A DNA stretch of 62,071 nt from contig JAQVSV010000003.1 in NCBI GenBank assembly GCA_028700325.1, positions 1-62,071 of the forward strand. The letters are read 5' to 3'. The translations under genes were made by a program, and so were the position numbers. This DNA comes from Elusimicrobiaceae bacterium (GTDB lineage Bacteria > Elusimicrobiota > Elusimicrobia > Elusimicrobiales > Elusimicrobiaceae). Positions 18,209 through 43,350 of this stretch are shown here, one piece after another (positions within the stretch are counted from its first letter, which is position 1; each line of letters starts with the position of its first letter). Under the pieces are notes generated by a model, which saw nothing but the letters and a program-made list of their open reading frames with translations, did no database searches and had not been told where the DNA came from.

Positions 18209-22569
<4,361 letters not shown>

Positions 22570-22573
<4 letters not shown>

Positions 22574-36248: not shown

Positions 36249-36692
36249 ATGACGGACGCGAAAACTTACTGGAACGAAAGCCTCGGCTCGGCGCGGGACA
36301 GGCTGATTATCCTGCCGCGCGGGCCGCAGTCCATGTTCGTTTACTGGGAATGGACGGCGGCGCGTTCCGCGCTGTTCCGGGCCGGCAAACTGGATCCGGC
36401 GGTCAAGATAAGGCTTTTTTTCGCAGGCGCGAATTCACCGGCGGCGGAATATGCGCGCCCGTGGGACACGCTGAAAATGTATATCGAGCCGCCCCAGCGG
36501 GGCCGCCAGTATTACGCCATGCTGGAAATCAACAGTCCCGGCGGCGGGCATCATACCCACCTTAATTCAAACACGATTCTGATACCGTCGGGTTTTCCGG
36601 CAGGCGCGCCGGAAGATTATGTGCCGTCAAGCGGCGAGCGGATGCTGTGCATGCCGTCAAGCATGGAAGCCATCCGCCCGGAGCATCTATGA
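36249..36692 (+). CDS. DUF4912 domain protein
   Basis: 147 residues. LPRGPQSMFVYWEWT (residues 22-36), the middle RLFFAGANSP and YYAMLEINSPGGG match DUF4912, an uncharacterised domain often encoded next to GH57 branching enzymes. A polysaccharide-binding or accessory role is inferred from that linkage only. Its stop overlaps the start of the GH57 gene as ATGA, so the two products are made together. Confidence 0.85.
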   Translation: MTDAKTYWNESLGSARDRLIILPRGPQSMFVYWEWTAARSALFRAGKLDPAVKIRLFFAGANSPAAEYARPWDTLKMYIEPPQRGRQYYAMLEINSPGGGHHTHLNSNTILIPSGFPAGAPEDYVPSSGERMLCMPSSMEAIRPEHL

Positions 36693-38293
36693 GCGCAAAA
36701 GGCTCGCTGGCCATTGTGCTGCACGCGCATCTGCCTTATATCCGGCACAGCGAAGCCCAGCAGTTTCTTGAAGAAGACTGGTTCTTTGAAGCCGTAACCG
36801 AATGCTATATCCCGCTGATCACCATGATCGAACGGCTGGCGGGCGAGTATATCCGCGCCGCGCTTACGATTTCCCTTTCCCCCACTTTATGCGCGCTGGT
36901 CGAAGATCCCGGCATGAACGACCGCTGCCGCCGTTACATTGACCGGCGGCTGGAATTGCTGAAGCTGGAACTCACGCGGATACCGCGCGGCTCCGCCGCG
37001 GAAAAAACCGCGCTGATGTACCGCGCCATGTTCGAGCAGTCGCGCAAGACGCTTGACCGGTTCGACGGCAATCTTCTCAACGCCTTCAAACTGCTTCAGG
37101 AAAAAGGCCATATCGAAGTCATAACCACCACCGCCACGCACGCGGTTCTGCCGATCATGATCCACCCGGAAGCCGTGCGCGCGCAGGTGCTGGCCGCGGT
37201 GAACGACTACCAGCGCCGGTTCGGCACGCGCCCCAAAGGGCTGTGGCTGCCGGAATGCGCGTTCACGCCGGCGATCGTTTCCGCGCTTCAGCTGTCCGGC
37301 ATCAAATACGTTTTTCTTGAAAAACACGCTATAGATTTCGCCAATCCGCGCCCCCGCAGCGGCGTGTTTACGCCCGTGCTTATGAAAGGCGGCCTGTTCG
37401 CCTACGCGCGGGACGCGGAATCGGCGCGCGGAGTGTGGAGCTCGAAATACGGCTATTCCGGCGCGCCGGAATACCGCGAATTTTACCGCGATCTGGGGTT
37501 TGACGCCGATTACGAATACATAAAACCGTACCTGCATGAGGACGGGGTGCGCCGCAGCCTGGGAATAAAATACCATAAAATAACCGGCAGCGTGCAGCTC
37601 GCCAGCAAAGAAGCATACGACCCCGAAGCCGCACAGAACAAGGCCAGAGAACACGCGCGCGATTTTCTCGACAAGCGGATAAAACAGGTGGAAAAAATCA
37701 ACGCGGAGCTTAATATCCGGCCGGTCATAACCGGCACCTACGACGCCGAGCTGTTCGGGCACTGGTGGCTGGAAGGCCCGGCGTTTCTGGAAAACGTGCT
37801 CCGCTATATCCGGTCAGAAAGGCTGCCGATACAGGTCATAACTGCGTCCGAAGGGCTTAACCTGATGCACGACAGCACGGAAACCGAGCCGGAGGCCTCG
37901 TCGTGGGGCGAAGGCGGCTATTTCGAGCCGTGGATAAACGAAAAGAACGACTGGATCTATCCGCGCCTCAACGCCGCGGCGGAACGCATGATAGAACTGG
38001 CAAACCGGTTCCAGCATCAGGAAACAACCATTTTGCAGCAGCGCGCGCTCAATCAGGCGGCGCGGGAGCTGCTGCTGGCGCAGTCGTCCGACTGGGCATT
38101 CCTGCTGTATGTGCAGTCGCACAGTTCTTACGCCGAAACCCGCATAAACAAGCACTGCGAGCGGATGTTCAAACTGGCGAATATGCTCAGCGACAACAAT
38201 ATTGACGAGGAATATCTGGCCGACGCCGAACGCCGCAATCCGGTGTTTTCCGGGCTGGATTACCGGATCTTCGCATCACCCGCTTCATTCTGA
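36689..38293 (+). CDS. GH57 1,4-alpha-glucan branching enzyme
   Basis: 534 residues from ATG 36689, which overlaps the previous stop; the upstream frame lies inside the DUF4912 gene. The GH57 motifs are visible: HAHLPYIRH near the N-terminus, the nucleophile Glu in GLWLPECAFTP (near residue 190), the acid/base Asp in TYDAELFGHWWLEG (near residue 350), and the C-terminal helical DUF1957 part with SSDWAFLLYVQS. It makes alpha-1,6 branches in glycogen in the cytosol. No glgA or glgC is nearby. Confidence 0.93.
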   Translation: MSAKGSLAIVLHAHLPYIRHSEAQQFLEEDWFFEAVTECYIPLITMIERLAGEYIRAALTISLSPTLCALVEDPGMNDRCRRYIDRRLELLKLELTRIPRGSAAEKTALMYRAMFEQSRKTLDRFDGNLLNAFKLLQEKGHIEVITTTATHAVLPIMIHPEAVRAQVLAAVNDYQRRFGTRPKGLWLPECAFTPAIVSALQLSGIKYVFLEKHAIDFANPRPRSGVFTPVLMKGGLFAYARDAESARGVWSSKYGYSGAPEYREFYRDLGFDADYEYIKPYLHEDGVRRSLGIKYHKITGSVQLASKEAYDPEAAQNKAREHARDFLDKRIKQVEKINAELNIRPVITGTYDAELFGHWWLEGPAFLENVLRYIRSERLPIQVITASEGLNLMHDSTETEPEASSWGEGGYFEPWINEKNDWIYPRLNAAAERMIELANRFQHQETTILQQRALNQAARELLLAQSSDWAFLLYVQSHSSYAETRINKHCERMFKLANMLSDNNIDEEYLADAERRNPVFSGLDYRIFASPASF

Positions 38294-40497: not shown

Positions 40498-41130
40498 ATG
40501 AATAAGTCATCCGAATGCGTATACCGGTTCAAGGACGCGGTCTATTTCAATATCACGAACGAGTGTCCCAATTCCTGCGTTTTCTGCATAAAACGGAAAT
40601 GGGACATGCAGTTCATGGGCCATAACCTGGCGCTCGGCGCACCGCCGCCAGCCGAAGAAATCATCAGCGCGCTTGACGCGGAATTGAAACGCGCGCCGGC
40701 GCGCGAGGCGGTTTTCTGCGGGTACGGAGAATCCACGATGCGGCTGGAAACCCTGCTCGCGGTAGGCCGGGCCGCCAAAGCGCTGGGCCTGAAGCTGCGG
40801 CTTAACACGGTGGGGCTGGGCAATCTGGTGAACGGGCGCGACATCACGTCCGATCTGGCGGAAGTGCTCGATTGCATAAGCATAAGCCTCAATTCGGCTG
40901 ATCCGGGCCAATGGAAACAGCTCGTGCGGCCGCTGAAAAAATACGAGGCGGAAGGCTTCGGATCCGTGCTGGAATTCATCCGCCTGTGCGCCGCAAAAAT
41001 ACCGGAAACGGTGGTGACGGCGGTGGAAGATCCCGCTGTTGACATGCGGCTGCTCGAAGCAACGGCCGGGCAGCTGGGCGCGAAATTCCGGGCGCGCCCC
41101 GCGCTGGGCGAAAACGGACCGGAAGGCTAG
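40498..41130 (+). CDS. Radical SAM protein, TatD-associated type
   Basis: 210 residues. The radical SAM triad is CPNSCVFC (residues 24-31), followed by CGYGESTMRLE and the late LDCISISLNS strand. The short form and the NITNECPNSC opening match the group usually found beside or fused to TatD nucleases, function unknown. No tatD is present here. It reads into the CBM48-like gene, with five bases between. Confidence 0.8.
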   Translation: MNKSSECVYRFKDAVYFNITNECPNSCVFCIKRKWDMQFMGHNLALGAPPPAEEIISALDAELKRAPAREAVFCGYGESTMRLETLLAVGRAAKALGLKLRLNTVGLGNLVNGRDITSDLAEVLDCISISLNSADPGQWKQLVRPLKKYEAEGFGSVLEFIRLCAAKIPETVVTAVEDPAVDMRLLEATAGQLGAKFRARPALGENGPEG

Positions 41131-41134
41131 CCTT

Positions 41135-41599
41135 ATGCATACCCGCCGCGCCACTTTCTATACTGCGCTGATCGCCATTTTCGCAGCACTGCTGGCGGTT
41201 CCTTCGACTTTTTTTGTGGATTCATTCACCGATTATTTCACGTTTCTCGCGCGCTGGAGTTCCGGCCTGACCCGTTCCGAACAGCTTGATATGACCGCGC
41301 CGCCGGCGCATACCGCGCGTTATCGCCCTAAAAAGAAACCGAATGTAAAACTGGTCAGCCTGAAATACCGCACGACCCGCGCCCGCTCGGTACGGCTGGC
41401 GGCGGATTTCAACCACTGGAAACCGGAATTCGCGTCTTTCGAAAAAATCGCGGGCAGCGGCTGGCAACTGACGCTGCCGCTCCCGGCCGGACGCTACCGC
41501 TACCTGCTGGAAGTGGACGGCGAACTCAAAACCGACAGCGAAAATCCCTTAAGCGAAACTTTCAATGGCAGAACTGTTTCCGTACTGGAGGTAAAATGA
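41135..41599 (+). CDS. Membrane-anchored protein with CBM48/AMPK-type glycogen-binding domain
   Basis: 154 residues from ATG 41135, with GGAAGG upstream. An N-terminal membrane helix (residues 8-26) is followed by a linker and an early-set carbohydrate-binding fold: VRLAADFNHWKP, WQLTLPLPAGRYRYLLEVDG and DSENP, the pattern of CBM48/AMPK-beta domains that bind alpha-glucans. The Trp in FNHW is the usual sugar-stacking residue. Its position near the GH57 enzyme and before the GH57-like secreted protein (ATGA overlap) supports an alpha-glucan role. It has no catalytic domain. Confidence 0.82.
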   Translation: MHTRRATFYTALIAIFAALLAVPSTFFVDSFTDYFTFLARWSSGLTRSEQLDMTAPPAHTARYRPKKKPNVKLVSLKYRTTRARSVRLAADFNHWKPEFASFEKIAGSGWQLTLPLPAGRYRYLLEVDGELKTDSENPLSETFNGRTVSVLEVK

Positions 41600-43350
41600 A
41601 AAGATTTTTTCTCGCGGCCGCCTGCGCGGCGGGTTTGCTGTGCGGCCCGTGCGCGGCCCAGCAGGGAGTAGCCCTGTTGTGGATACCTGAACCCGGCTCC
41701 GACATCCTGCCGGTGCTTTCGGAAACCGGCGCGAATCCGGATTTCAAATTCACCGTGGCAATCGCGCCGGAAAACGTAACGGAGCAGGTGAAACCGCGTC
41801 TTCAGCAGCTGGAAACGGACGGGCGGGCGGAAACCGCCCTTCGCATAGTCGGAGATCCGCCTCTGCCGCTGCTTTTTTCGCCCCAGAGCGCTGAAGTCGT
41901 CTGGCCCGGAAAAACGGACAAGAAGCTCTGGTCCACCCGGCTTGACGAACTTGCGTCCTGCATTTTCAAGGAGCGGAACCTGTTTGAAAAGAAATTCGTC
42001 AGCGAACCGCTGGGCTGGGTGCCACAGGCCGGCGGCATAACGCCGGAAATGATCTCGCTCACCAAAGCCTACAGCATGAAGTGGCTCGCCGCCGGCCCGA
42101 ACGGGGCGGGCGGCAACACCGTGTACGGCGACGATGATATCAGCGTGGTATCGTTCTCGCGAATCGCCAGCACGGCCGCGTTCGCCGAGCTGCTGGGCGG
42201 CCGGGAAACGGACTTCGTGTTCGCCGTAATAGATGAAACGCTGCCGCGCGGCGGTGACGAGCCGGACCCCCGGCAGACGCTGCTTTCGCTAATCCGCGAA
42301 TCCACAGCCACGCCGAACTGGCAGACCGTCTCGCAGGCGCTGGCCGGCGACATTTACAAAGCCTCGCTTGACCCGGAATCTTCCTCATACCAGCCGTGGA
42401 CCGGCGACTACGCGCTCTGGGCAGGTTCGGCGCGCCAGCAGGGCGCGCTCAGAAGCCTCGACGAAGCCCGGCGCAATTACGGAATTTTCATAAATTCCGG
42501 GAGCAATACCCGCGCAGCCGCCGCGCTGCAGCGGGAATTCGATGAAATCCAGTCATCCTCGAACCTGCTGGTGCTTGGCAGCACCGTGCCCGAAACGGGA
42601 AACGCGGCCGAGGAAACTTTCAAAACGCGGCTCAAAAGCATCTACCGCAAAATGAACAGGCCGATACCGCCCACTTTGTCGCAGCCGCTTTCGGCTTCCG
42701 ATGCGGCCTCGGCCGACCTGTCAGCCGCCGCGCCGCAGTCCGCCTCCATGAAAAGCGGGCCCGGCTGGCTGAAAATTGACAATCCGGCGGAGCAGCTGAA
42801 ACTGCCGGAAACGCTTGCGAAAATGAAAAATCTTTCCGCCGAGGCGTTCAGCGTCGCTTCGTTACAGGCCGAATGGACTGACAGCACGATCACCTTTACG
42901 GTTAAATCCGAGTCCGGCGCGGATTTCAAAAACCTTTTTCTGGCGGATCTGTATATAGATCAGAACCATCGCGCGCGCTCCGGGCTTACCGAACTGCTCG
43001 ACGGCCGCGGCGGGCTCAGAACGTCCCCGGAAGACGCCTGGGAATTCGCCTTCAGCGTGTACGGCGGCGGCGCCAGATTTTACCAGGCCACGCCCGACAA
43101 GGCCCTTTTTCTCCGCAGTTATCCGGTCCGGCAAAAAAACGGCTCGCTTTCGTTTGAAGTGCCCCGGACGGATTTGCGCGGCAATCCGGAAAACTGGGGT
43201 TACTGCCTGCTGGTAATGGCGTACGACTCAACAGCGAACGACCTTTATTACCCGCTGCAGTTTGACGACAAAACTGCCGTGATAGACACCGTAGCGCTGG
43301 ACAGACTGGGTTCCACGCTGTACTTTTTCCGGCTTCCCAAAAAATACTGA
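41596..43350 (+). CDS. Secreted protein with degenerate GH57-like region and glucodextranase-type C-terminal domain
   Basis: 584 residues. A signal peptide (residues 1-22, ending CAAQ) exports it. Residues 24-280 recall the GH57 barrel by pattern (LPVLSETGANPDFKFTVAIAP; PLPLLF; GWVPQAGGITPEM; MKWLAAGP), but the Glu expected in the WPxEG-type nucleophile motif is Ala. Residues 390-580 resemble the Glucodextran_C module (LFLADLYIDQNHRARSG; DAWEFAFSVYGGG). I infer a non-catalytic or weakly active alpha-glucan-binding protein of the envelope. The resemblance is by eye and should be treated as tentative. The start overlaps the CBM48 gene as ATGA. Confidence 0.6.
   Translation: MKRFFLAAACAAGLLCGPCAAQQGVALLWIPEPGSDILPVLSETGANPDFKFTVAIAPENVTEQVKPRLQQLETDGRAETALRIVGDPPLPLLFSPQSAEVVWPGKTDKKLWSTRLDELASCIFKERNLFEKKFVSEPLGWVPQAGGITPEMISLTKAYSMKWLAAGPNGAGGNTVYGDDDISVVSFSRIASTAAFAELLGGRETDFVFAVIDETLPRGGDEPDPRQTLLSLIRESTATPNWQTVSQALAGDIYKASLDPESSSYQPWTGDYALWAGSARQQGALRSLDEARRNYGIFINSGSNTRAAAALQREFDEIQSSSNLLVLGSTVPETGNAAEETFKTRLKSIYRKMNRPIPPTLSQPLSASDAASADLSAAAPQSASMKSGPGWLKIDNPAEQLKLPETLAKMKNLSAEAFSVASLQAEWTDSTITFTVKSESGADFKNLFLADLYIDQNHRARSGLTELLDGRGGLRTSPEDAWEFAFSVYGGGARFYQATPDKALFLRSYPVRQKNGSLSFEVPRTDLRGNPENWGYCLLVMAYDSTANDLYYPLQFDDKTAVIDTVALDRLGSTLYFFRLPKKY

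Follow-up and report, generated by a model that had tools for sequence, protein, structure and literature searches.

Among GH57 proteins, those that lack catalytic residues are recognised as a class of their own, the "like" proteins (PMC6037648, an in silico analysis of GH57 subfamilies from 2018). In the sections of that paper that were available, these groups are derived from GH57, have a substituted catalytic residue, are predicted to be non-enzymatic, and show all five GH57 conserved regions; the same sections describe no "like" group that is paired with a membrane CBM48 protein or with a sensor locus, and the paper makes no mention of Elusimicrobia. Here, we describe a protein of the Elusimicrobiota, GHL, that shares with these groups its derivation from GH57, a substituted catalytic residue, and a predicted non-enzymatic nature. 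GHL is, however, more diverged than the known GH57 "like" proteins: it has degenerate versions of conserved regions 1 and 3, and the copy that served as our starting point is undetectable by the GH57 profile PF03065. No description of the GHL family, its locus, or its gene context was found in a literature search that had few subscription papers in reach.

Three further known families touch upon the locus. The first is Glucodextran_C (PF09985), the C-terminal binding module of glucodextranase, where it rides on a working enzyme; the same domain is found at the C-terminus of GHL, where it sits on what appears to be a dead GH57-like barrel. The second is the AMPK beta glycogen-binding domain/CBM48, whose FN.W ... 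L.L..G.Y.Y...VDG...D pattern recurs in the protein encoded next to GHL. Unlike its AMPK beta and CBM48 counterparts, this protein stands alone: it has a transmembrane (TM) anchor of its own and is joined to neither an enzyme nor a kinase, and most of the canonical glycogen contacts are changed within the order concerned, the Elusimicrobiales. Finally, the gene immediately upstream of the CBM48 gene encodes a clear member of the TatD-linked radical SAM family (TIGR04038), and we know of no link between this family and GH57 or CBM48 proteins.

The window, by which we mean the whole 62,071-nucleotide stretch of DNA that was analysed, is contig 3 of a 2.2-Mb Elusimicrobiota genome that is 99% complete. 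Two loci related to GHL both come from Elusimicrobia MAGs, which puts the family, and through it the window, in this phylum. Both genes of the pair were recovered at the positions that the initial annotation had given them, and the features of the region are as follows.

36249-36692: DUF4912 protein (family match confirmed)
36647-38293: GH57 branching enzyme (family match confirmed)
40498..41130, + strand: TatD-linked radical SAM protein (TIGR04038, 180.6 bits, cut-off 129.7)
41135..41599, + strand: CBM48/AMPK1_CBM-like, membrane-anchored protein of 154 aa (PF16561, 31.7 bits; hydropathy)
41162..41218, + strand: TM anchor of the CBM48 protein, TALIAIFAALLAVPSTFFV, with RR before it (positive-inside; hydropathy maximum 2.23 over 19 residues)
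41596..43350, + strand: GHL, a secreted, predicted non-catalytic GH57-like protein of 584 aa with a Glucodextran_C-like C-terminus (sequence, profile comparison)
41596..41658, + strand: GHL signal peptide, MKRFFLAAACAAGLLCGPCAA (sequence, hydropathy; cleavage predicted after CAA)
41659..42360, + strand: GHL GH57-like beta/alpha barrel region, roughly residues 22-255 (hhalign, residues 37-168)
42013..42048, + strand: GHL degenerate GH57 conserved region 3, GWVPQAGGITPE, residues 140-151 (alignment, 71 members)
42028-42030, + strand: GHL Ala145 codon, in place of the nucleophile Glu (profile alignment)
42361..42693, + strand: GHL post-barrel helical region, roughly residues 256-366 (conserved positions; low-confidence model)
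42826..43230, + strand: GHL Glucodextran_C-like beta domain, about residues 411-545 (PF09985 in relatives; conservation)

The stop codon of the CBM48 gene overlaps the start codon of the GHL gene by 4 nt (ATGA), and a gap of 4 bp separates the radical SAM gene from the CBM48 ATG. The radical SAM and CBM48 genes, which are direct neighbours in this order in nearly all Elusimicrobiales loci, probably form one operon; at one locus outside the order (L160), TatD itself lies upstream of the pair. Within the GHL helical region, the conserved positions read PWTGDY...NSG...Y350..P358. In family f2 (L036-L054, e.g., L036:5650-6405), a DUF34/NIF3 protein gene follows GHL in most loci; in this family, as in the window, the radical SAM gene has a divergent glycerate kinase gene on its upstream side. 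Elsewhere in the window (18209-22573, + strand), a 1454-aa hybrid histidine kinase is encoded, with GAF, several PAS, HisKA, HATPase_c, and two receiver domains.

The pair that the initial annotation had singled out in one locus is conserved in relatives. Of 77 GHL loci in genomes with a listed CBM48 match, 76 have the CBM48 gene immediately upstream of GHL and on the same strand, the sole exception being a second GHL copy in one genome (G055), and the exact 4-nt start/stop overlap recurs in many of the pair loci. Gut Elusimicrobiaceae (genera g2, g3, g5, and g6) keep the radical SAM-CBM48 arrangement, with TsaE-TsaB-RimI-TPR where GHL would be, and GHL has no adjoining CBM48 gene in families f15, f19, f21, and f26; neither gene, therefore, strictly needs the other. 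At the GHL-less gut loci (L056-L071, e.g., L064:5073-9294), the tiny CBM48 protein has been retained in reduced genomes. Since there are families in which one gene is present and the other is not, in either direction, the two proteins could be thought to have separate roles and to share an operon merely by descent, but adjacency in 76 of 77 loci across many families, together with the frequent start/stop overlap, makes co-location of this kind a very improbable explanation.

The GHL protein of the window, taken alone, has no Pfam match even at an E-value of 1 and none in NCBIfam, and its best match in the PDB has an E-value of 0.69; a PDB search with a family profile built from Elusimicrobiales only (A1) likewise returned nothing. 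Relatives of GHL are found in 180 of 295 Elusimicrobiota genomes and in 76 of 90 genera, with many of the weaker matches falling mainly over the C-terminal domain, and four distant members score above the cut-off for PF03065 (L146, 90.5 bits; L160, 57.1 bits; L147, 55.3 bits; and L159, 43.0 bits). In a profile-profile test, 27 GHL members, including that of the window, were compared with ten GH57 enzymes of the same order that have intact catalytic motifs, and the two profiles matched over residues 37-168 (hhalign, 96.1%, E 2.9e-9). A positive control of one GH57 profile against another gave 97.8%, and negative controls with eight unrelated neighbour-gene profiles and a CBM profile stayed at or below 6.4% (E at least 0.0058). 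The match is convincing only with the phylum-wide profile, as the Elusimicrobiales-only alignment A1 aligned weakly with GH57 (7.8%, E 0.0045). At the level of sequence, these matches show that GHL descends from a GH57 amylase barrel. The initial annotation had read the protein as a GH57 barrel joined to a Glucodextran_C-like module, and a search with both families recovers the relation through relatives, the window protein alone being silent. Predicted structures of GHL were too poor to judge the (beta/alpha)7 barrel fold by (pLDDT 46 and 40, with weak secondary-structure support), since the input alignment contained only two relatives besides the window protein.

In the profile alignment, the GHL segment G140-W-V-P-Q-A145 falls on G-x-W-L-A-E122 of active GH57, in which Glu122 is invariant among the set from the same phylum. 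The GH57 nucleophile Glu of conserved region 3 is thus absent from GHL, and Ala145 stands in its place in the window, just as the initial annotation had it by eye. Position 145 is occupied by Pro in 34 members, Ala in 9, Gly in 9, Tyr in 6, and Ser in 5, with other residues in the rest and Glu in none of the 71; a mutation specific to the window was accordingly rejected as the explanation, and the alignment indicates that the catalytic nucleophile has been lost in every GHL member sampled. The HQP motif of GH57 region 1 was likewise found in no aligned member, the first strand reading ALLWIP or similar in the order.

Two acidic residues further along are well conserved, with Asp213 found in 58 and Glu214 in 51 of the 71 members, and the former is a candidate for the region-4 Asp, the GH57 proton donor, although it lies outside the significant alignment, which ends at residue 168. 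These residues could point to an enzyme of changed mechanism, in which GHL would use Asp213 and a nucleophile from elsewhere, or would act as a lytic or deacetylase-like member of the same barrel clan. The CE4 deacetylase fold clan includes GH57; a Foldseek search with the low-confidence GHL models gave no significant PDB match and a weak resemblance to CE4 deacetylases, and in Pfam one member (L159) matches Polysacc_deac_1 with an E-value of 0.0031. The Foldseek matches were not significant, however, the first strand of GHL carries neither the GH57 His-Gln-Pro nor the CE4 Asp-Asp motif, and conservation is poor in the second barrel half, which is largely absent from the short f16 member L147, as would not be expected of an active site. 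Catalysis by an altered route is, for these reasons, quite improbable.

The C-terminal part of GHL is better preserved. PF09985 scores above its cut-off in many GHL relatives over the aligned region (up to 127 bits), bearing out the Glucodextran_C-like module that had been proposed, and the window's own copy, while below detection, aligns throughout with those of the relatives. Conservation is highest in this module, at 2.01 bits per column, as compared with 1.29 in the second barrel half, which varies most among the folded parts of the protein; what selection maintains, therefore, appears to be the C-terminal module rather than a catalytic cleft. Its conserved positions are Y453, D455, N457, G463, W482, P531, and W534.

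The CBM48 protein is present in 239 of the 295 Elusimicrobiota genomes. By hydropathy, it has one N-terminal TM helix (residues 10-28), following MHTRRATFY, with the CBM at about residues 80-154, and the CBM domain is predicted to lie outside the cytoplasmic membrane. In the window, it scores above the cut-off for AMPK1_CBM (PF16561, cut-off 26.8 bits) and below that for CBM_48 (PF02922, 18.3 bits, cut-off 22.4). This match, the TM helix, and the ATGA overlap uphold the suggestion that GHL is translationally coupled to a membrane-anchored, CBM48-like partner. A second CBM48 fragment occurs at a contig end in the genome that contains L072 (7920-8126 of L072, G000:C35:12000-20128), and in most genomes of the order, an additional CBM48 match of lower score falls in a frame of approximately 170-240 aa. 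Four residues of AMPK beta1 that contact glycogen, W100, K126, W133, and N150, were compared. Of these four contacts, the window protein keeps W100 (as W95), with the equivalents of K126, W133, and N150 changed, so glycogen-type binding may have been lost; the distant CBM48 partner in L147 keeps three (W100, K126, and W133).

The initial annotation had also drawn a GH57 branching enzyme and a DUF4912 protein, located just upstream, into the proposed system. Both proteins are what they were said to be, but the neighbourhood survey led us to reject their membership: in relatives, the two genes are paired with each other on contigs other than that of GHL, and no branching enzyme was found beside the GHL loci of relatives, except for one that lies 6.5 kb off in L052. 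Their closeness to GHL in the window is, therefore, incidental. The arrangement of a DUF4912 gene directly upstream of a GH57 branching enzyme gene is conserved in its own right across the order (G036:C28, G042:C9, G045:C15, and others). Many genomes also encode a further DUF4912 protein, longer than the first, next to a different GH57 gene. In the open-access literature, no paper on the function of DUF4912 was found.

A different set of neighbours was seen outside the order. There, a LysM-FecR gene and a dCache histidine kinase gene are both found near GHL in 17 of 34 loci, representing eight families, and an HtrA gene in 8 loci, representing five. For example, the f16 locus (L160) encodes, in order and on one strand, TatD, a class II aldolase, the CBM48 protein, GHL, HtrA, a histidine kinase, and a LysM-FecR protein. 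In families f3 and f9, genes for HtrA and a response regulator-GGDEF protein come after GHL, and in f7, f8, f10, f13, f17, f21, and f26, genes for a LysM-FecR protein and a dCache-HAMP-PAS histidine kinase lie nearby in convergent orientation. Two of the LysM-FecR proteins (L161:8761-10164 and L144:10285-11931) also match Glucodextran_B (34-38 bits, cut-off 27). The idea that the pair binds or senses glycans, first raised by the initial annotation, gains independent support from these sensor-kinase, LysM-FecR, and HtrA genes in other families. No sensor, LysM-FecR, or HtrA neighbours were found with the same profiles at the gut loci examined. A search of the window's genome gave no clear orthologue of LysM-FecR and one weak LysM-region match, and the HtrA gene of this genome is on a contig other than that of GHL; a sensing role in the window's organism is, therefore, an extrapolation.

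HtrA and LysM-FecR neighbours could also be expected if the three folds involved (GH57 barrel, Glucodextran_C, and CBM48) had become protein-protein interaction modules that help to assemble the envelope or to control its quality, together with HtrA and LysM partners, and no glycan were bound. Such a scaffold would also suit the degenerate catalytic region of GHL, the loss of the canonical glycogen contacts of CBM48 in the order, and the absence of linkage between the glycogen-type genes (DUF4912 and the branching enzyme) and the locus in relatives. Three carbohydrate-related folds in two adjoining genes would, however, be an odd recruitment for pure scaffolding, and two further points argue against it: some distant CBM48 partners, such as that in L147, keep both tryptophans and the lysine of the AMPK site, and the GHL Glucodextran_C domain has conserved aromatic residues. 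We consider a scaffold unlikely, and it retains the weight that it does because W100 is the only one of the four AMPK contacts kept by the window's CBM48 protein.

Taken as a whole, the evidence inclines us, with confidence slightly above even, to regard the two genes as a non-catalytic, envelope glycan-recognition pair that was ancestrally tied to envelope sensing. Since signalling and envelope-stress genes adjoin the pair elsewhere in the phylum, its role is probably to recognise sugars rather than to act on them as an enzyme. As a glycan-recognition pair, the CBM48 protein and GHL would work jointly, each of them outside the cytoplasmic membrane, with the former tethering or co-presenting the latter. 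The dead cleft and the two beta-sandwich modules may then bind a glycan without cleaving it, an alpha-glucan being the likeliest class. Ancestrally, this binding would have reported the state of the envelope or of a surface glycan to the dCache histidine kinase/LysM-FecR/HtrA module, which would no longer be adjacent to the pair in the window's order. It is tempting to go further and to suggest a phylum-wide ancestral sensing locus, in which the CBM48 protein and the pseudoenzyme served as the receptor, the dCache kinase as its reader, and LysM-FecR and HtrA as effectors of envelope homeostasis, with the Elusimicrobiales having kept the receptor and dropped or moved the signalling genes; this larger scheme is possible but doubtful.

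Dead GH57 relatives have so far been known as groups to which no function is attached, and GHL is conserved across most of the Elusimicrobiota genera sampled. Its gene context provides a starting point for testing the function of a GH57 pseudoenzyme. In addition, the pair and its neighbours may supply a set of markers with which to study the envelope of the Elusimicrobiota, a little-studied phylum with very few cultured members.
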